A DNA stretch of 64,000 bases from positions 124,001-188,000 of the forward strand of contig NZ_WMDQ01000005.1 of the NCBI RefSeq assembly GCF_009707955.1, given 5' to 3'. The position numbers were made by a program, and so were the translations under genes. Source of the DNA: Flavobacterium sp. LC2016-13. Its GTDB lineage: Bacteria > Bacteroidota > Bacteroidia > Flavobacteriales > Flavobacteriaceae. The notes under the pieces were generated by a model. It was given only the letters and a program-made list of their open reading frames with translations, was not told the origin of the DNA and made no database searches. Below, one piece after another: positions 6,879 through 47,655 of the stretch (position 1 is the first letter of the stretch; every line of letters begins with the position of its first letter).

Positions 6879-6894
6879 ATTACTAAGTTTTTTT

Positions 6895-6960
6895 GCCACG
6901 AATTCACGAATTTTTCAAATTAAGATTTTAAAATAAATACTTAATTCGTGAATTCGTGGC
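6895..6960. repeat. GCCACGAATT-family palindromic intergenic repeat, copy 1
   Basis: GCCACGAATTCACGAATT and its exact reverse complement (6943-6960) flank a 30-base AT-rich spacer in the gap between the GH97 and second amylase genes. Related palindromes lie at 10539, 14693 and 44314. It can fold as a long stem and may also end transcription. Confidence 0.8.
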
Positions 6961-7105
6961 AGAAACTTACGCTCATTTCTGAGCGAAAAATAAAATTTTA
7001 CTACTTGAAAACTATTAACCACAAAATGTTTGTCAAATTTAAAACAATGCGAGTGAGAATGAATTTTAGTTAGAGATGCTGACAAGCATGCAAAAAACAA
7101 AAATT

Positions 7106-10530: not shown

Positions 10531-10538
10531 TTTTATTT

Positions 10539-10620
10539 TGCCACGAATTGCACTAATTAGCACGAATTTTTATTTTTCATAACTAACTTTAATTTTTGGA
10601 AATTGGTGTAATTCGTGGCA
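10539..10620. repeat. GCCACGAATT-family palindromic repeat, copy 2 (imperfect)
   Basis: TGCCACGAATTGCACTAATT at the left end and GTGTAATTCGTGGCA at the right end form imperfect inverted arms around an AT-rich centre. It sits between the convergent amylase and mfd genes. The arms have drifted more than in the other copies. Confidence 0.7.
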
Positions 10621-10632
10621 ACTTTTTTTAAA

Positions 10633-14692: not shown

Positions 14693-14764
14693 TAGCCACG
14701 AATTCACGAATTTTATTGATTTATTAATCAATCAGGAAAAAGAAAATTCGTGAATTCGTGGCTA
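14693..14764. repeat. GCCACGAATT-family palindromic repeat, copy 3
   Basis: TAGCCACGAATTCACGAATT and two more bases (14693-14714) are matched exactly by the inverted arm at 14743-14764 across a 28-base spacer. It lies between the divergent lipoprotein and epimerase-like genes. Confidence 0.8.
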
Positions 14765-16017: not shown

Positions 16018-17220
16018 ATGACAAATTCTTATCATCCTCTCGAACAAAGCAAAAGAACTGCTATTGTCGATATTCTTCGTGGTTGGGCTATATTAGGCGT
16101 TGCCATTGGCAATTATTCCGGCTTTCAACTCATCGGTATACCACACGAAATCAAGAATAGTATTTTATCAGACATACTATCTAATTTTGATCAGTATTTT
16201 TTAGCTGGAAAATCCTGGACTTTATTAACCATTTTATTTGGCTATGGCTTTGCCATTTTAATTAACAATGTCGCTGCAAAAGGCAAAAACCCTGTTACTT
16301 TTTTTAGCTGGCGAATGCTATTGCTTTTTGGTTTGGCTTTTATTGATTCGTCTTTTTGGTTTGGCGACATCTTAAAAGATTATGCGTTTTTAGGACTTAT
16401 ATTGTTGTTATTTTATAAAAGTTCAGCAAGAACCTTAGCTATTACTTGTGCTATTCTTATTCTTGCCACTCCTTTTATAATGGCTTATATCAAAGGCCTG
16501 AATATAGAAAGAATAGCGATTACCACAGATCCTGAATATTTAAAATTATATCATTCGGGAAACTGGCTGGACTTCTTTAAATTTAATCTCGTAGCTTCTT
16601 TTTATCAGCAAATTATTGTTCCCGGTTACGCCATTACGGCACATATTGTAATGCTTGCTTGTATGCTTTTTGGGGTTTTGCTGCAAAAAATAAATTTTTT
16701 CAATCGTTTAAACGAAATGAAAAAACTTTTAATCTATGTACTTATAAGCAGCTTTTTTATTTCTGTTATGATGGGTATTGGTTTTTATTTTGCCATTGAA
16801 AATAAAGCTGGCTTTCTTAAATTCTTTCATCCTTATTTCTGGTTTATTTTAAGCACAATGATTTTTGTTGCAACCGGCATTTGTTTATTATATAACAACG
16901 GCAAGCTTAAAACGATATTCAACTATTTTAGTGCCGGAGGAAAAATGACACTAACCAATTATATGATTCAAAATATTTTAGGTGCATTTATCTTCTCCGG
17001 AATTGGTTTAGGAATTGCGGATACTATGCCGTATTGGTTTTACTTTTCGTTAGCGGTTTTTATCTTTATTGTTCAATTATTTATAAGTAAATGGTGGCTT
17101 TCAAAATACAATTATGGCCCTGTTGAATGGTTATGGAGAGTTTTAAGTTACAGAAAGATGTTTCCTTTAAAAAAGACGATACAAAACAATATTGTAACTG
17201 ATATAAAACCTGTTTTATAG
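16018..17220 (+). CDS. DUF418-family integral membrane protein
   Basis: 400 residues with around ten hydrophobic segments. The N-terminus (RTAIVDILRGWAILGVAIGNYSGF) carries the start typical of DUF418 and acyltransferase-3/HGSNAT-like membrane proteins. The C-terminal DUF418 signature is visible (FNYFSAGGKMTLTNYMIQNILGAFIFSG ... FISKWWLSKYNYGPVEWLWR). Members are thought to act as transporters or transacylases, but no substrate is established. Monocistronic, with its own promoter and a shared terminator with the convergent M1 peptidase gene. Confidence 0.9.
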   Translation: MTNSYHPLEQSKRTAIVDILRGWAILGVAIGNYSGFQLIGIPHEIKNSILSDILSNFDQYFLAGKSWTLLTILFGYGFAILINNVAAKGKNPVTFFSWRMLLLFGLAFIDSSFWFGDILKDYAFLGLILLLFYKSSARTLAITCAILILATPFIMAYIKGLNIERIAITTDPEYLKLYHSGNWLDFFKFNLVASFYQQIIVPGYAITAHIVMLACMLFGVLLQKINFFNRLNEMKKLLIYVLISSFFISVMMGIGFYFAIENKAGFLKFFHPYFWFILSTMIFVATGICLLYNNGKLKTIFNYFSAGGKMTLTNYMIQNILGAFIFSGIGLGIADTMPYWFYFSLAVFIFIVQLFISKWWLSKYNYGPVEWLWRVLSYRKMFPLKKTIQNNIVTDIKPVL

Positions 17221-24992: not shown

Positions 24993-25739
24993 ATGTTATC
25001 AATAAAAAACCTTCACGCCTCAATTGGTGATAAAGAAATCCTGAAAGGAATTAATATAGAAGTTAAAGCTGGCGAAGTACACGCTATCATGGGACCAAAC
25101 GGTTCTGGAAAAAGTACACTTTCGGCTGTAATCGCTGGAAACGAAAATTATGAAGTTACTGATGGAGAAGTTTTTCTTGACGGAGAAGATCTTGCTGATT
25201 TAGCTCCTGAAGAAAGAGCGCATAAAGGTGTTTTTCTTTCTTTTCAATATCCTGTAGAAATTCCTGGAGTAAGTGTAACAAACTTCATGAAAACAGCGAT
25301 CAACGAAACTCGTAAAGCAAATGGTCAGGAAGAAATGCCTGCAAACGAAATGCTAAAAGTAATTCGTGAGAAATCTGAATTGTTAGAAATCGATCGTAAA
25401 TTTTTATCTCGTTCTTTAAACGAAGGTTTTTCCGGAGGAGAGAAAAAAAGAAATGAAATTTTTCAAATGGCAATGTTAGAGCCAAAATTAGCAATCCTTG
25501 ATGAAACGGATTCTGGTCTTGATATCGATGCTTTAAGAATCGTTGCTAATGGTGTAAACAAATTAAAAAGCGAGAAAAACGCAATTATAGTAATCACGCA
25601 CTACCAACGTTTGTTAGATTATATCGTTCCGGATTTCGTTCACGTTCTTTACAACGGAAGAATCGTAAAATCTGGCGGAAAAGAATTAGCTTACGAGTTA
25701 GAAGAAAAAGGATACGACTGGATTAAAGCGGAGAATTAG
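24993..25739 (+). CDS. sufC: Fe-S assembly ATPase SufC
   Basis: 248 residues. Walker [10 protein letters not shown] at 34-42, the SufC-type signature [13 protein letters not shown], Walker [13 protein letters not shown] and the switch His in [12 protein letters not shown] are all present. SufC is the ABC ATPase that drives conformational change of SufBCD during cluster building. The following sufD is displaced by about 530 bases because a repeat-framed four-helix-bundle gene lies between them. Confidence 0.98.
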
Positions 25740-25741
25740 TC

Positions 25742-25779
25742 AGTCATAAAGTCGAAAGTCAAAAGTCATAAAGTCGAAA
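25742..25779. repeat. Left repeat array (AGTCATAAAGTCGAAA) of the four-helix-bundle cassette
   Basis: Two tandem copies of a 19-base unit, AGTCATAAAGTCGAAAGTC and AAAAGTCATAAAGTCGAAA, begin right after the sufC stop and end 7 bases before the four-helix-bundle ATG. The same unit recurs after that gene in both orientations. Confidence 0.85.
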
Positions 25780-25786
25780 ATACAAT

Positions 25787-26155
25787 ATGAGTAAATTCAA
25801 ATCTTTTGAGGAAATAAATTCTTGGCAAAAATCTCGAATCTTCAATAAAAAAATATATTTGATTACTGAAAATTCTAATTTTAAAAAAGACTTTGATTTT
25901 GTTAGACAAATAAGACGTGCATCACTTTCTATATCGTCAAATATAGCCGAAGGCTTTGAAAGAAATACTGATAAAGAGTTTGTTTACTTTTTATATGTTG
26001 CCAAAGCATCCGCAGGAGAAGTTAGATCTCAATTATATTTAGCTTTTGATTTAGAATACATTATAAAAGAAGAATTTGAAATGCTTTTAGAATCGATAAC
26101 AGAAATATCGAAATTATTAAGCGGTTTCATTAAATATTTGAGCCCAAAGTCATAA
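25787..26155 (+). CDS. Four-helix-bundle protein (23S rRNA intervening-sequence protein family)
   Basis: 122 residues, all helical, with the family signature IRRASLSISSNIAEGFERN and KEFVYFLYVAKASAGEVRSQLYLA. The family was first seen in intervening sequences inside 23S rRNA genes; its role is unknown, possibly binding nucleic acid. Here it lies between sufC and sufD in the same direction. The last codons (PKS and stop) lie inside the right-hand repeat, and the left repeat ends 7 bases before the ATG, so gene and repeats look like one inserted unit. No evident link to Fe-S assembly. Confidence 0.92.
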   Translation: MSKFKSFEEINSWQKSRIFNKKIYLITENSNFKKDFDFVRQIRRASLSISSNIAEGFERNTDKEFVYFLYVAKASAGEVRSQLYLAFDLEYIIKEEFEMLLESITEISKLLSGFIKYLSPKS

Positions 26156-26263
26156 AGTCGAAAGTCATAAAGTCTCAACCTTTATGCTTTAAATTTTTAA
26201 CCTTTTGGCAAAAACAGTCGGCAATCCTAAGTCTTTCGACTTTCGACTTTCGACTTTAAGACT
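26146..26263. repeat. Right repeat array of the four-helix-bundle cassette (direct and inverted)
   Basis: AAAGTCATAAAGTCGAAAGTC repeats at 26146-26174 in direct orientation, and the inverse AGTCTTTCGACTTTCGACTTT runs across 26229-26263, ending 10 bases before the sufD start. With the array at 25742 these form an inverted pair around the four-helix-bundle gene. Confidence 0.85.
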
Positions 26264-30544: not shown

Positions 30545-30970
30545 ATGAGAATATTATCTTTATTACTATTAGTTATTTGCATCGAAACAGGTTGTTCAAG
30601 CCAAAAAAAAGCAGATATGACTTCAACTCAAATTGAATATTCAGCGCTTTCAAGAGGATATTACAAAAAAATTGTAGTTCAAAACCAAACTGTTTCAGTT
30701 ACAAACGGAAGAGATCAACAGCCTGTTGAAACTAAAATAGATACGGCAAAATGGAACCAAATTGTAACTGAATTTGAAAAAGTAAATTTAGATGGAATTG
30801 CAACTTTAAAAGCTCCAACTGAAAAACGTACTTATGATGGTGCTGCAATTGGAAATTTAAAGATAACTCAGAATCAAAAAACATACGAAACGACAGGTTT
30901 CGACAACGGTTATCCTCCAAAGGAAATCGAAAAATTGGTAAATTTGCTGGTTGATTTTACGAAAGAATAA
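30545..30970 (+). CDS. Small lipoprotein of unknown function between sufS and sufE
   Basis: 141 residues. The signal MRILSLLLLVICIETGC ends at lipidated Cys17. The mature part is beta-rich with charged segments (IEYSALSRGYYKKIVVQNQTVSVTNG, KRTYDGAAIGNLKITQNQKTYETTGFDNGYPPKEI). No catalytic motif is seen. It is 11 bases after sufS and 2 bases before sufE, so it is surely expressed with them; an envelope protein in a cytosolic pathway operon is odd, and its function is unknown. Confidence 0.88.
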   Translation: MRILSLLLLVICIETGCSSQKKADMTSTQIEYSALSRGYYKKIVVQNQTVSVTNGRDQQPVETKIDTAKWNQIVTEFEKVNLDGIATLKAPTEKRTYDGAAIGNLKITQNQKTYETTGFDNGYPPKEIEKLVNLLVDFTKE

Positions 30971-30972
30971 TT

Positions 30973-31398
30973 ATGACAATAAAAGAAATTCAAAACGAAA
31001 TAATAGATGAATTTTCGATGTTTGATGATTGGATGCAACGCTACGAATACATCATCGAACTGGGAAAAAGCCTTCCGTTAATTCAGGAAGAATATAAAAC
31101 AGACGAAAATTTAATAAAAGGCTGCCAATCGAAAGTTTGGTTGCAGGGAGAACAAAAAGACGATAAAATTGTTTTTACTGCAGATAGTGATGCGATTCTA
31201 ACCAAAGGAATAATTGCAATTTTAATTCGTGCATTTTCTAATCAAAAAGCATCAGACATTATAAATGCTGATACTGAGTTTATAGATGAAATTGGTTTAA
31301 AAGAGCATTTATCAGCAACACGCGCAAACGGATTGGTTTCGATGATAAAGAACATCAAAATGTACGCTTTGGCTTTTGATACGAAAAATAAGAATTAA
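30973..31398 (+). CDS. sufE: Sulfur acceptor protein SufE
   Basis: 141 residues with the SufE pattern DDWMQRYEYIIELGKSLP and the sulfur-accepting Cys in LIKGCQSKVWL. SufE takes the persulfide from SufS and passes it to SufB. It starts 2 bases after the lipoprotein stop. The next suf-linked gene (SufT-like) is displaced by a 611-bp cassette. Confidence 0.96.
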   Translation: MTIKEIQNEIIDEFSMFDDWMQRYEYIIELGKSLPLIQEEYKTDENLIKGCQSKVWLQGEQKDDKIVFTADSDAILTKGIIAILIRAFSNQKASDIINADTEFIDEIGLKEHLSATRANGLVSMIKNIKMYALAFDTKNKN

Positions 31399-31407
31399 AA
31401 ATTTTGA

Positions 31408-31448
31408 ACCATATAAGTTATATAAGATAATTTAAGTTTTGACGCTTA
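31408..31448. repeat. Left terminal inverted repeat of the GxxExxY cassette
   Basis: ACCATATAAGTTATATAAG (31408-31426) is the exact reverse complement of 32000-32018. The match continues imperfectly inward and ends with an exact TGACGCTTA. It begins 10 bases after the sufE stop. Confidence 0.88.
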
Positions 31449-31535
31449 AATTATTATGTCAAGAAATGTAAGTAATCTATTTAAAAAGTAGGCTTTATCT
31501 TTTTTTTTTATTTGTTATTATTGCTAAAAAAATAG

Positions 31536-31946
31536 ATGGTAACAAAGAAATATTTGACTGATTTAATTTATCAGGTTAATGGAGCGGCGATTGAAGTTCA
31601 TAAAAGTATTGGGGCGGGGCTTATAGAAAGTATTTATCATCAATGCATGATTAAAGAATTATCTATTAGAGGAATTAGTTTTAAATCTGAATTAGTAATT
31701 CCAGTTGAATATAAAGGCTTGGAATTAGAGTCAGATCTAAGATGTGATTTATTTATTGAAAATTGTTTAGTTCTTGAGTTAAAAGCAGTTGATCAAATTA
31801 TACCTATTCATATTGCAAAACTGATGTCTTATATGAAGCTTTTAAAATCTCCAATAGGATTAATGATAAATTTCAATGTTACAAATATTTATCACGAAGG
31901 TCAAAAAACATACGTCAACGAATTATATCGTTGGTTAGAAGAATAA
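31536..31946 (+). CDS. GxxExxY protein, PD-(D/E)XK nuclease-like
   Basis: 136 residues. The family motif GLIESIY is at 28-34, and a PD-(D/E)XK-type active site can be read as Asp71 (CDLFI) and Glu81-Leu-Lys83 (VLELK). HxAKLMSYMKLLKSPIGLMINF is the family's C-terminal block. Proteins of this kind are found as lone genes, often within inserted sequences, and their role is unknown. Here the gene sits inside a 611-bp unit with 41-base inverted ends placed between sufE and the SufT-like gene. The catalytic residues look intact, so a nuclease that helps the unit spread is possible. Confidence 0.92.
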   Translation: MVTKKYLTDLIYQVNGAAIEVHKSIGAGLIESIYHQCMIKELSIRGISFKSELVIPVEYKGLELESDLRCDLFIENCLVLELKAVDQIIPIHIAKLMSYMKLLKSPIGLMINFNVTNIYHEGQKTYVNELYRWLEE

Positions 31947-31977
31947 AATATAAAAAATAAAGCATCTATATTTTGTA

Positions 31978-32018
31978 TAAGCGTCACGTTTAAAATGAAC
32001 TTATATAACTTATATGGT
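31978..32018. repeat. Right terminal inverted repeat of the GxxExxY cassette
   Basis: TAAGCGTCA at the inner end and CTTATATAACTTATATGGT (32000-32018) at the outer end mirror the left repeat. The SufT-like ATG follows 15 bases later, so the repeat lies in its leader. Confidence 0.88.
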
Positions 32019-32033
32019 GAAAAAACAAAAACA

Positions 32034-32357
32034 ATGGAACAAGAAATAGACACAAACGAATTAGGAGAATCAATTGTAAAAGTTTTAAAGAGCATTTACG
32101 ATCCGGAGATTCCTGTAGATATTTATGAATTAGGATTAATTTATGATGTAATGGTAAATACTGATTACGAAGTAAAAATCTTAATGACGCTTACATCTCC
32201 AAACTGTCCGGTTGCAGAAAGTTTACCGAGGGAAGTTGAAGAAAAAGTGAAGAAGATAGACAACATTAAAGATGTTGATGTTGAAATTACTTTTGATCCG
32301 CCCTGGAGCAAAGATTTAATGAGCGAAGAAGCAAAATTAGAATTAGGAATGCTTTAA
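32034..32357 (+). CDS. MIP18/DUF59-family Fe-S assembly factor (SufT-like)
   Basis: 107 residues from the ATG at 32034 (MEQEIDTNELGESIV). The frame is open back to 31995, but those 13 codons lie in the cassette's inverted repeat, so the later start is preferred. The family blocks are SIYDPEIPVDIYELGLIYDV and MTLTSPNCPVAESLP with its conserved Cys, and a terminal VEITFDPPWSKDLMSEEAKLELG. SufT/MIP18 proteins help mature Fe-S proteins. In flavobacteria this gene normally follows sufE, so the cassette between them is an interruption. Confidence 0.93.
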   Translation: MEQEIDTNELGESIVKVLKSIYDPEIPVDIYELGLIYDVMVNTDYEVKILMTLTSPNCPVAESLPREVEEKVKKIDNIKDVDVEITFDPPWSKDLMSEEAKLELGML

Positions 32358-32366
32358 AAAATATTT

Positions 32367-32433
32367 GTTTCAGGTTCAAAGTTTCAAGTTTCAGGTTACG
32401 TAACTTGAAACTTGAAACCTCAAACTTGAAACC
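32367..32433. repeat. Palindromic AAGTTTCAAGTTTC repeat before the DUF2480 gene
   Basis: AAGTTTCAAGTTTCAGGTTAC and GTAACTTGAAACTTGAAAC meet at the exact centre GTTACGTAAC, making a near-perfect 60-base palindrome. It is empty of genes and occupies nearly all of the gap before the DUF2480 start. Confidence 0.85.
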
Positions 32434-32442
32434 ATTTTTCAT

Positions 32443-32952
32443 ATGGAAGAAATCATCAATAAAGTTGCCAACAGCGCTTTAGAAGTTTTTGATCTTGAAG
32501 ATTATTATCCAAAAGGAATGCGAGTGCAATTAGACATTTCGCAATGGCTTTTAGAAGGATTTCTCTTGAAAGAAAAAGACTTTAGAGAACACTTAAAAAA
32601 TCACGATTGGTCGCAATATCAAGATCAATATGTGGCAATAAATTGCAGTACAGATGCAATTGTTCCTGCTTGGGCATCTATTTTGGTAGCTGTTCAATTG
32701 GCTCCTTTTGCCAAAAAAATAGTCAACGGAACTATCGAAGATTTAGAGGGAAGTTTATACGAAGAAATTTTAAGCAAAATTGATTACTCGGTTTATAAAA
32801 ACAAACCTGTTATTGTTAAAGGCTGTTCCAGAAAACCGGTTCCAATGCGTGCTTACATTTTAGCTACAAACTACTTACAGCCATTTGCAAGAAGTATTAT
32901 GTATGGTGAAGCTTGTTCTGCGGTACCTTTATACAAAGAAACTAAGAAATAA
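32443..32952 (+). CDS. DUF2480-family protein, suf-linked
   Basis: 169 residues, no signal peptide. Readable family features are LDISQWLLEGFLLKEKDFREHLKNHDW, QYVAINCSTDAIVPAWASILVAVQLAPFA and VIVKGCSRKPVPMRAYILATNYLQPFA. Two Cys (in INCSTD and KGCSRK) lie in otherwise conserved-looking contexts and could bind metal. The gene is regularly found after sufE and the DUF59 gene in Bacteroidota, which suggests a supporting role in Fe-S assembly; no function is established. Confidence 0.9.
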   Translation: MEEIINKVANSALEVFDLEDYYPKGMRVQLDISQWLLEGFLLKEKDFREHLKNHDWSQYQDQYVAINCSTDAIVPAWASILVAVQLAPFAKKIVNGTIEDLEGSLYEEILSKIDYSVYKNKPVIVKGCSRKPVPMRAYILATNYLQPFARSIMYGEACSAVPLYKETKK

Positions 32953-36157: not shown

Positions 36158-36223
36158 AAACCATTTAGAAATTAAGGTCATTAAGCGTTTATTCTTAATG
36201 AAACTTAATTTTTAAATGGTTTT
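36158..36223. repeat. Imperfect palindrome AACCATTTA...CATTAAG...CTTAATG...TAAATGG
   Basis: An outer stem AAACCATTTA/TAAATGGTTT and an inner stem CATTAAG/CTTAATG enclose an AT-rich loop, in the gap between hflX and the next gene upstream of it. Together with the other palindromes it looks like a small repeat unit; it could also end transcription of the gene at 36247, but it lies downstream of that gene on the minus strand without a strong T run. Confidence 0.55.
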
Positions 36224-42889: not shown

Positions 42890-43000
42890 AATAAATGCAT
42901 TTTGGGATTATACTATAAAAGTACTAAAAAGCTACTTTATAGACTACCAAACCCGACTAGTTCCTGAATTTATAACGTTATTGTTTATAATTTTTTTTTA
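42890..43000. other. Leader of the MFS gene, part of a 326-base gene-free gap
   Basis: AT-rich. GTACTAAAAAGCTACTTTATAG lies just upstream of the gene, with no recognisable promoter consensus. The rest of the gap to 43215 is the palindromic element. Confidence 0.4.
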
Positions 43001-43200
43001 GGGACTGAGGTTCTGAGGTGCAAAGGGACAAAGGTTTTTTGTACAGGCGTACTTGTAGTACATCTTTTTTATGCCGATTTTATCCATCATAAAAAATAAT
43101 GTAATTGTTGTAACACAGAGGCAAATAGCAACATTGCGTCTTTTTTATGCAAATATACAGGAAACCTTTGTCCCTTTGCACCTCAGAACCTTTGTCCCTT
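43001..43200. repeat. 200-bp element with long inverted ends (AGGTTCTGAGGTGCAAAGGG)
   Basis: The left arm (43001-43037) and right arm (about 43162-43200) are near-perfect inverted copies of an AAAGGTTCTGAGGTGC / AAAGGGACAAAGGTTT sequence, 37-39 bases long. The 124-base interior is AT-rich, has no ORF and contains a small hairpin (GTAC...GTAC). The plan resembles a MITE: a small non-coding unit with inverted ends. Confidence 0.8.
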
Positions 43201-43215
43201 AAAACAAGCAAACTT

Positions 43216-44313: not shown

Positions 44314-44389
44314 TTTGCCACGAATTGCACGAATTTACACAAATCAGTACGCTTAAAATTAATTCGTGTAAATTCGTGCAATTCGTGGC
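44314..44389. repeat. GCCACGAATT-family palindromic repeat, copy 4
   Basis: GCCACGAATTGCACGAATTT and four more bases (44317-44340) have an exact inverted copy at 44366-44389. It lies between the Gfo/Idh/MocA and FMN oxidoreductase genes. A partial, one-armed relative (TTTCACGAATTAACACAAAT) is seen near 54522. Confidence 0.82.
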
Positions 44390-44424
44390 GAAAAATAATC
44401 CTTTTAATCTGTGGCTATATTTCC

Positions 44425-47342: not shown

Positions 47343-47356
47343 GTTTATACTGGTTT

Positions 47357-47655
47357 GTCATTTCGACTGAAAGGAGAAATCGCACTAGAAACTCTACAAA
47401 GATTGGTTATTTTGCTTGCAAATGATGGATTAAAATCCATCCCTACAATATAATCTGTTCCTCCGCAACTCTTAATCGATAATCTGTGTCATTCCGAGGA
47501 ACGAGGAATCTCCGCAAGGAACTCTACAAAGATTGGCGATTATGATTACGGAGCTTCTAGTGTGATTTCTCCCTCCGGTCGAAATGACAAAAAAAGTTAA
47601 CCCACAGTCTGTGTCATTTCGAGGAACGAGAAATCTTCGCAAGAAACTCGACAAA
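47357..47655. repeat. GTCATTTCGA-type interspersed repeat block (four copies)
   Basis: Three direct copies, GTCATTTCGACTGAAAGG... (47357), GTCATTCCGAGGAACGAGG... (47488) and GTCATTTCGAGGAACGAG... (47612), are each followed by variants of AAACTCTACAAAGATTGG. One inverted copy (GATTTCTCCCTCCGGTCGAA, near 47563-47588) lies among them. A small palindrome ATGGATTaaAATCCAT is at about 47424. The block fills the gap between the tRNA terminator and the XRE gene; the apparent ORF here is repeat-derived. Confidence 0.82.

Follow-up and report, generated by a model that had tools for sequence, protein, structure and literature searches.

The 611-bp unit that separates sufE from the SufT-like gene probably belongs to a family of palindromic repeats as its gene-bearing form, with the GxxExxY protein encoded within it as the dedicated enzyme of that family, in the manner of REPIN-RAYT systems. 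Several features of the sequences point to this reading, 1) the arms consist of phased words in inverted pairs with a variable spacer between them, 2) the ends track the nuclease, 3) gene-less pairs are in the majority, and 4) there is a single gene of this type, under purifying selection. The window (the whole 64,000-nucleotide stretch that was analysed) corresponds to positions 124001-188000 of contig 5 of a 5.9-Mb genome.

Anatomy of the unit and its protein

The 611-bp unit with 41-nt inverted ends around an intact GxxExxY gene, reported in the first-pass annotation, was reproduced in coordinates and sequence (Table 1). The outer sequence, ACCATATAAGTTATATAAG at 31408-31426, had an exact complement at 32000-32018. 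The 41-nt ends as a whole formed an imperfect inverted repeat, and the inward matching described earlier was indeed present, closing with an exact TGACGCTTA (31440-31448) that is complementary to 31978-31986. When the A/T-rich flanks were included, the inverted repeat reached 31402-31448 and 31978-32024 (47 nt, 81% complementary). The small local repeat behind the left end may be the leftover inner arm of a full palindrome, as in loci L046, L064 and L070. With up to three mismatches, the two unit ends were the sole matches of the degenerate 19-mer in the window, while 100 shuffled windows gave a mean of 0.09 matches.

Table 1. Positions of the unit, its parts and related features in the window
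Feature	Position	Strand	Basis
GxxExxY palindromic unit, 611 bp	31408..32018	+	sequence and inverted-repeat search
Left inverted end: outer 19 nt ACCATATAAGTTATATAAG, imperfect inward to TGACGCTTA	31408..31448	+	
Right inverted end, complementary to the left one and exactly so over the outer 19 nt	31978..32018	-	
Small local inverted repeat ATAATTTAAG / CTTAAATTAT behind left end	31427..31454	+	by eye
GxxExxY / PDDEXK_3 nuclease-like gene, 136 aa	31536..31946	+	ORF and profiles
sufE, upstream neighbour	30973..31398	+	ORF and profile
SufT-like / SUF_assoc gene, downstream neighbour	32034..32357	+	start by eye at ATG of 32034
Sister unit: inverted ends around 23S_rRNA_IVP four-helix-bundle gene (25787-26155)	25742..26263	+	
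Gene-less palindrome, CACGAATT family	10538..10621	.	
Gene-less palindrome, CACGAATT family	44314..44392	.	
Gene-less palindrome, other family (GTTTCAAG), next intergenic gap	32360..32439	.	

The upstream flanking protein was SufE (PF02657, 2.7e-47) and the downstream one a SUF_assoc protein (TIGR02945, 9.1e-43). The GxxExxY (PF13366) ORF was the only one of at least 60 aa lying wholly in the unit, and neither an HUH Y1 tyrosine transposase nor any other transposase was found among ORFs of that length, in agreement with the earlier description of a unit devoid of transposase. No Rfam match was obtained in 30900-32600 at gathering scores.

The encoded protein matched PF13366 PDDEXK_3 (1.5e-35) and TIGR04256 GxxExxY (2.4e-36) over nearly its full length, and its TIGR04256 score of 124.6 bits, against a curated cut-off of 35, identified it as a family member. 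The D-ELK active-site pattern previously called intact was present as D71 and E81-L-K83, along with GAGLIESIY. The catalytic set E31, D71, E81 and K83 had its E, D, E and K in 130/130 aligned GxxExxY proteins, and the protein is a predicted nuclease with these residues intact. The QxxxY motif is a mark of the Cas4 / lambda exonuclease branch; the Q was found in 118/130 and the Y in 130/130 aligned proteins, the window protein having K for Q. No conserved cysteine cluster was seen by eye in a 12-sequence alignment of the family.

One of five AlphaFold models was good (pLDDT 81, the remaining four 47-57). With this model, the top Foldseek match was Cas4 SSO0001 (E 1.3e-4, TM 0.52), followed by lambda exonuclease, while VIA-align gave Z scores of 8.9 for Cas4 SSO0001, 7.2 for SwaI and 6.4 for Hjc, an archaeal Holliday-junction resolvase; scores under 8 may reflect only a shared arrangement. 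The closest fold of the protein, as predicted from the one good model of five, would be that of Cas4. By sequence, no convincing relative of solved structure was found (best E 0.27).

Matches to TIGR04256 occurred in 121/150 Flavobacterium genomes. Nine close orthologues at the suf site gave a median dN/dS of 0.054 over 36 pairs (dN 0.045, dS 0.84), which argues for strong purifying selection on the CATATAAG-type gene. In-frame stops were present in 7 of the 80 best-matching loci from named genomes (L201, L204, L207, L230, L258, L264, L266), and these seven genes were otherwise well preserved in sequence. No role for the GxxExxY family was found in the open-licence PubMed Central literature.

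Inverted ends and the nucleases they enclose

Allowing two mismatches at most, the end motif occurred at 64 sites genome-wide against 0 for the reversed control pattern; this, with none of the 100 shuffled windows having two matches, ruled out a chance repeat. The 64 sites fell into 23 convergent pairs, 0 divergent pairs and 1 same-strand neighbour. All but one of the pairs (22/23) spanned 64-295 bp, too short for the gene, and the remaining pair was the suf unit. Gene-less copies of the ends, which the first-pass annotation had suggested looking for, are thus scattered through the genome as 22 pairs, but the gene-bearing form was confined to a single site. The exact motif was found at 22/46 paired sites as opposed to 1/18 single ones (p 0.0013), a single site being one for which no partner was found, which bears on the comparison. 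In 16 site-bearing stretches inspected by eye, the arms were ACCATATAAGTTATATAAGTTCATTTAA-like wherever both were printed and the loops looked unrelated. Longer CATATAAG pairs around other genes were present in genomes G007 (where the enclosed gene, from its translation, is presumably trpS), G015, G006 and G075; by eye, those of G007, G015 and probably G006 were separate gene-less palindromes.

The phasing of the arms was apparent in 206 pooled arms, in which identity at a shift of 9-12 bases was 0.32-0.40, while shuffled arms gave 0.27-0.28; identity was also elevated at shifts of 1 and 2. The left and right arms of the same unit matched each other better than shuffled partners (17.1 vs 16.2 of 19, p 0.001) in the 18/20 units with the motif on both sides, a test uncorrected for genome relatedness.

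A second family, CACGAATT, had 81 sites in the same genome with up to one mismatch (control 0). The genome contained four GxxExxY genes, all within inverted ends, and the ends, named by eye, were of three classes: CATATAAG at the window gene, which was the only gene of that type, CGCAGATTT-like at L009, the weakest of the four (end score 15-17), and CACGAATT at L011 and L012. Further inverted repeats were seen in the window at 6890-6965 and 14693-14764 (both CACGAATT-like), at 36158-36222 (resembling the ACCATTAAG family), at 42992-43207 (resembling the CTGAG class) and at 47354-47591. Elsewhere in the genome (L189, contig 14, about 16035-16261), a CGCAAAG palindrome was nested within a CATATAAG palindrome. 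In two gene-less palindromes, L179 and L173, the loop enclosed a terminator-like hairpin, an arrangement that simple insertion downstream of a gene does not readily explain.

Inverted ends were conserved with the gene elsewhere, around most of the GxxExxY genes tested and in several phyla. In the genus, an end score of at least 16 was reached in 52/63 loci (25/34 and 27/29 further ones). The first scoring of the 34 had given 22, five loci cut by contig ends having been off-centre; when centred, these (L018, L020, L022, L026, L042) scored 33, 22, 18, 23 and 23. None of 183 shifted positions in the same loci scored 16 or more (maximum 15), and the maximum at 30 SufT gene boundaries was 13. Among the named genomes, 57/77 loci scored at least 16, compared with 0/217 shifted controls. 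This set comprised the best 80 matches to an L013-type query, less 3 with short flanks, so that it represents mostly one nuclease class. It included L242 and L268, from metagenome-assembled genomes that bear the labels Pyrinomonadaceae and Kiritimatiellaeota, respectively. Such labels are fallible: L237, labelled Nitrotoga, was identical over 1981 bp to L026 of this genus.

Pooling gave 172 loci, 156 without duplicates and 152 with usable flanks, of which 120 scored at least 16 and 22 below 14. These loci are not independent, as they form 37 site clusters by their flanking proteins, the largest with 47 and 27 loci; a score of 16 was reached or exceeded within 26/37 clusters, and by no locus of the other 11/37. 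By script, 98 of the 120 units consisted of one palindrome whose loop contained the gene, 20 had an extra palindrome on one side and 2 on both. Among eight distant plasmid-borne members, the end scores were 32 in Gemmatirosa, 20 in Bernardetia and 24 in Bacteroides, and 9-13 in Sphingomonas, Fusobacteria, Prevotella, Treponema and Persicobacter (5/8 below 14). The Sphingomonas parapaucimobilis plasmid (L335) carried its GxxExxY gene between fabD and fabG, without clear inverted ends. Carriage by phages was rejected for both queries, since a tblastn search of 50,697 phage records with the L013-type protein returned 0 matches and no relative of the window protein was found in viral contigs.

The ends followed the nuclease rather than the site. 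Over 130 pooled loci with end scores of at least 14 (7004 pairs at non-homologous sites), end similarity correlated with protein similarity (Mantel rho 0.62; maximum of 300 permutations 0.17), the mean end score rising from 6.4 below 45% protein identity to 14.2 above 80%. Conversely, in 24 same-site pairs with proteins less than 45% identical, the ends were unlike (means 7.0 and 7.4). At one site, whose flanking gene we take from its translation to be map, this genome (L012) had a CACGAATT-type gene and ends, while nine relatives (L015, L017, L024, L025, L031, L034, L036, L041, L042) had another gene with CACAGAG/CACAAAG-type ends and flanks matching on both sides; in L015, L024, L025, L031 and L036 the ungapped end score was 9-12 and the ends were read by eye. 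The L012 and L031 proteins were 38% identical. Since gene and ends differ together here, exchange of the whole cassette is the simplest reading. The earlier view of gene and inverted ends as one unit was borne out: that a gene and its cognate palindrome form such a unit, with gene and ends coupled, appears well supported by the sequences compared. From the association of end sequence with nuclease version, repeat families and enzymes would seem to be paired widely, in a manner so far undescribed.

Repeat load was compared with gene presence using classes assigned by hand. Other CATATAAG copies had a median of 9 in the 26 genomes with the gene vs 0 in those without (p 2.6e-6), and the excess was also seen within strata, with p 0.033 for 29 species with large genomes and 1.5e-5 for the remainder. 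The CGCAAAG family, whose gene was present in 22 genomes, gave p 0.015 overall and non-significant values within strata (0.17 and 0.45). The excess with the gene was clear for CATATAAG and weak for CGCAAAG. Many copy-rich genomes had no close gene (G008 had 94 sites and no match at 1e-25), which suggests that the repeats outlive the enzyme or are served by others. In 18 further genomes, picked for having a GxxExxY locus, CRCARAG doublets were found in all, at 1 to 407 sites (control 0-1); the 407, partly overlapping, were in a metagenome-assembled genome labelled Pyrinomonadaceae (control 1).

The same anatomy was found around a second kind of gene. The sister unit lies in the same suf operon, between sufC (24993-25739) and sufD (from 26274), with ends AGTCATAAAGTCGAAAGTC and a gene matching PF05635 (1.3e-34), presumably the S23 family. 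PF05635 was found in 146/150 genus genomes, and 24/29 of its loci (L073-L102, with 1 of 30 left out because it was cut short) lay in inverted repeats, compared with 1/145 in the control. The ends were of classes of their own (CTAAG, CTGAG and others), unlike the GxxExxY ends. Co-divergence of ends and protein gave rho -0.26 for the 23 loci used of 28 read (out of 30), a set with no unlinked pair above 65% identity. As these four-helix-bundle genes are not nucleases and share the anatomy, its common cause may be something other than nuclease activity.

The sufE-sufT junction and competing explanations

The junction was surveyed in 70 of the 145 genomes with a SufT match, namely this genome and the 69 that ranked next in SufT similarity, palindrome families being assigned by eye. 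The gap held a GxxExxY gene in 20/70, one of them (L120) apparently degenerate, CATATAAG arms without a gene in 9/70, a CACGAATT palindrome in 10/70, a ACCATTAAG palindrome in 8/70, other gene-length sequence in 4/70 and unclassified content in 5/70. The first-pass annotation had called sufE and the SufT-like gene normally adjacent and had proposed a search for junctions lacking the unit; such junctions exist, with a gap of 0-9 bp in 14/70 genomes, but the gaps otherwise varied and the statement on adjacency holds only in part. The unit is not fixed in all relatives, its ends have gene-less copies, and the ends are conserved with the gene in relatives, the opposite of what that annotation had held would count against its proposal. 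The junction occurs in occupied, gene-less and empty form, with no polarity among the three.

Each of the 26 CATATAAG-type genes found in the 150 genomes, a class assigned by hand, was by coordinates within 878 bp of sufT. With this shared junction and the dN/dS of 0.054, the gene appears to be vertically inherited. No excision or jump of the gene was seen in the genomes compared, nor was a target-site duplication, the flanks being A/T-rich and the empty sites coming from other species. That the gene was found only beside sufT, while the scattered copies are gene-less palindromes, weakens the case for an insertion sequence and agrees with a RAYT-like reading.

The likeliest mechanism would be one in which the nuclease spreads or maintains its palindromes. 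A Cas4-like PD-(D/E)XK nuclease would recognise and cut its cognate arms, which might then be folded into a hairpin or cruciform, and host repair or replication would copy the palindrome to new intergenic places, in a REPIN-like spread, or alternatively into existing palindromes. Some gene-less pairs may stem from loss of the gene with the ends left behind. The outcome would be a repeat population accompanied by an enzyme that is inherited vertically, a Cas4-like nuclease here standing in for the HUH transposase.

The main rival, which we nevertheless consider unlikely, is homing into existing palindromes: the nuclease would cut gene-less palindromes of its family and its gene would be copied in by recombination, the palindromes spreading otherwise or serving the host. 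Homing would fit the 98/120 units in which one palindrome encloses the gene in its loop, and the palindromes of three families that occupy the sufE-sufT gap across relatives. It would also fit L072, where a foreign palindrome stands beside an apparent remnant CATATAAG right end, and L064, where the gene has a full palindrome on either side; L061, which lacks the gene, resembles a recombinant built from one half of each, by analogy with a solo LTR (one case, across species). However, every family would then need an invasion by a nuclease clade of its own, just 1/23 CATATAAG pairs in this genome has room for the gene, and the gene is at one site only when an active homing gene would be expected in several palindromes. 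It is distinctly improbable that the palindromes are host repeats (mRNA hairpins, terminators or protein sites) with the gene as settled cargo. Although this would account for their persistence in genomes without the gene, their location between operon genes and the terminator-like hairpins in the L179 and L173 loops, cargo explains neither an end class that tracks the nuclease at unrelated sites nor the joint difference of gene and ends at one site.

Another enzyme acting in trans, a RAYT or an insertion-sequence transposase, might move the palindromes, with GxxExxY incidental. Y1_Tnp genes, which we take to be RAYT-like, were found in 108/150 genus genomes, and their best 30 loci, 27 of them usable, served both as a positive control and as a rival. 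Strong inverted ends were present in 12/27, mostly of the short REP type (CCCGTAGGG, TTCCGNNGGAA, GCTTCGGAGAAGC) and by eye REP-type hairpins; two of the 12, L307 and L319, are A/T-rich and may be chance. GxxExxY-class words were merely scattered at these loci (for example, CATATAAG once in L307 and the 6-mer ACATAG on both sides of L325). Ownership of the repeats by RAYT was therefore unsupported in the 27 loci, whose ends are of another type, and as the unit has no further ORF of at least 60 aa wholly inside it, an enzyme of this kind is a very remote candidate. The minimal mobile element of the first-pass annotation, in the sense of an insertion-sequence-like element recently transposed to this position, is hardly tenable. 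What stood of it was one gene within inverted ends, gene-less pairs that share those ends, the lack of a transposase and the 0-9 bp gap in 14/70 genomes. A recent arrival by jumping did not stand, as 26/26 genes adjoin sufT with dN/dS 0.054, the genome has one such gene and no jump or target duplication was seen; moreover, the L013-type protein had 0 phage matches and 8 distant plasmid ones.

Relation to known systems

Three papers (PMC8049555, PMC3116915, PMC8266576) describe REPIN-RAYT systems as inverted doublets with diverse spacers, several families per genome and decaying singlets, each family with a separate enzyme whose single-copy gene is vertically inherited. The CATATAAG family resembles these in its inverted doublets with variable spacers (23 convergent pairs, 0 divergent, loops varied by eye), in the presence of several families per genome, in singlets that decay, in the co-variation of enzyme and end sequence by family (Mantel rho 0.62) and in an enzyme gene that appears vertical (26/26 at one junction, dN/dS 0.054). 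RAYT genes are described as keeping their place as the repeats spread, and the CATATAAG-type gene, too, was found at a single site. The differences are that the RAYT enzyme is an HUH Y1 transposase, whereas here it is a PD-(D/E)XK nuclease with a predicted Cas4-like core, that the arms here are phased words every 9-12 bp, and that the Y1_Tnp genes of Flavobacterium have other ends. The unit is not a REPtron because its enzyme is unrelated, though it would work alike.

Unlike a full-length insertion sequence or the element behind a MITE, which has a transposase, the unit has only GxxExxY. The protein agrees with its family (TIGR04256, PF13366) in its near full-length match and intact catalytic residues. 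It shares with the Cas4 / lambda exonuclease branch the closest predicted fold and, in most GxxExxY members, the QxxxY motif, but differs from Cas4 in that no conserved cysteine cluster was seen and its neighbours are suf genes. No link of GxxExxY, PF13366 or TIGR04256 to repeats was found in the open-licence PubMed Central literature, which is no proof of absence, including passages of PMC8934634 and PMC9756366; nor was any mention of six repeat words found there. A 2025 survey (PMC12306157) tabulates REP sequences for two Flavobacterium genomes, and the words RAYT, nuclease and transposase are absent from its main text.

Whether GxxExxY proteins in general are the dedicated enzymes of phylum-spanning mobile palindromic repeats (CGCAAAG, CACAGAG and CACGAATT types) is an evenly balanced proposition; they would then be a second, independently evolved counterpart of REPIN-RAYT that acts by copying or homing without a transposase, with the 23S rRNA intervening sequences as one branch. 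The family gains a concrete, testable candidate substrate in the palindrome surrounding each gene, and a possible owner is indicated for large intergenic repeat families. If the nuclease moves the palindromes, repeat populations would spread without a transposase, and REPIN-RAYT would no longer be the sole bacterial partnership of enzyme and repeat.

The 23S rRNA intervening sequences are described as small elements with inverted repeats and one short ORF (PMC4990558). They are located in rRNA and carry a four-helix-bundle ORF, whereas the unit lies between sufE and the SufT-like gene and carries a nuclease-like ORF; the S23/IVP protein family itself occurs here in the same anatomy.
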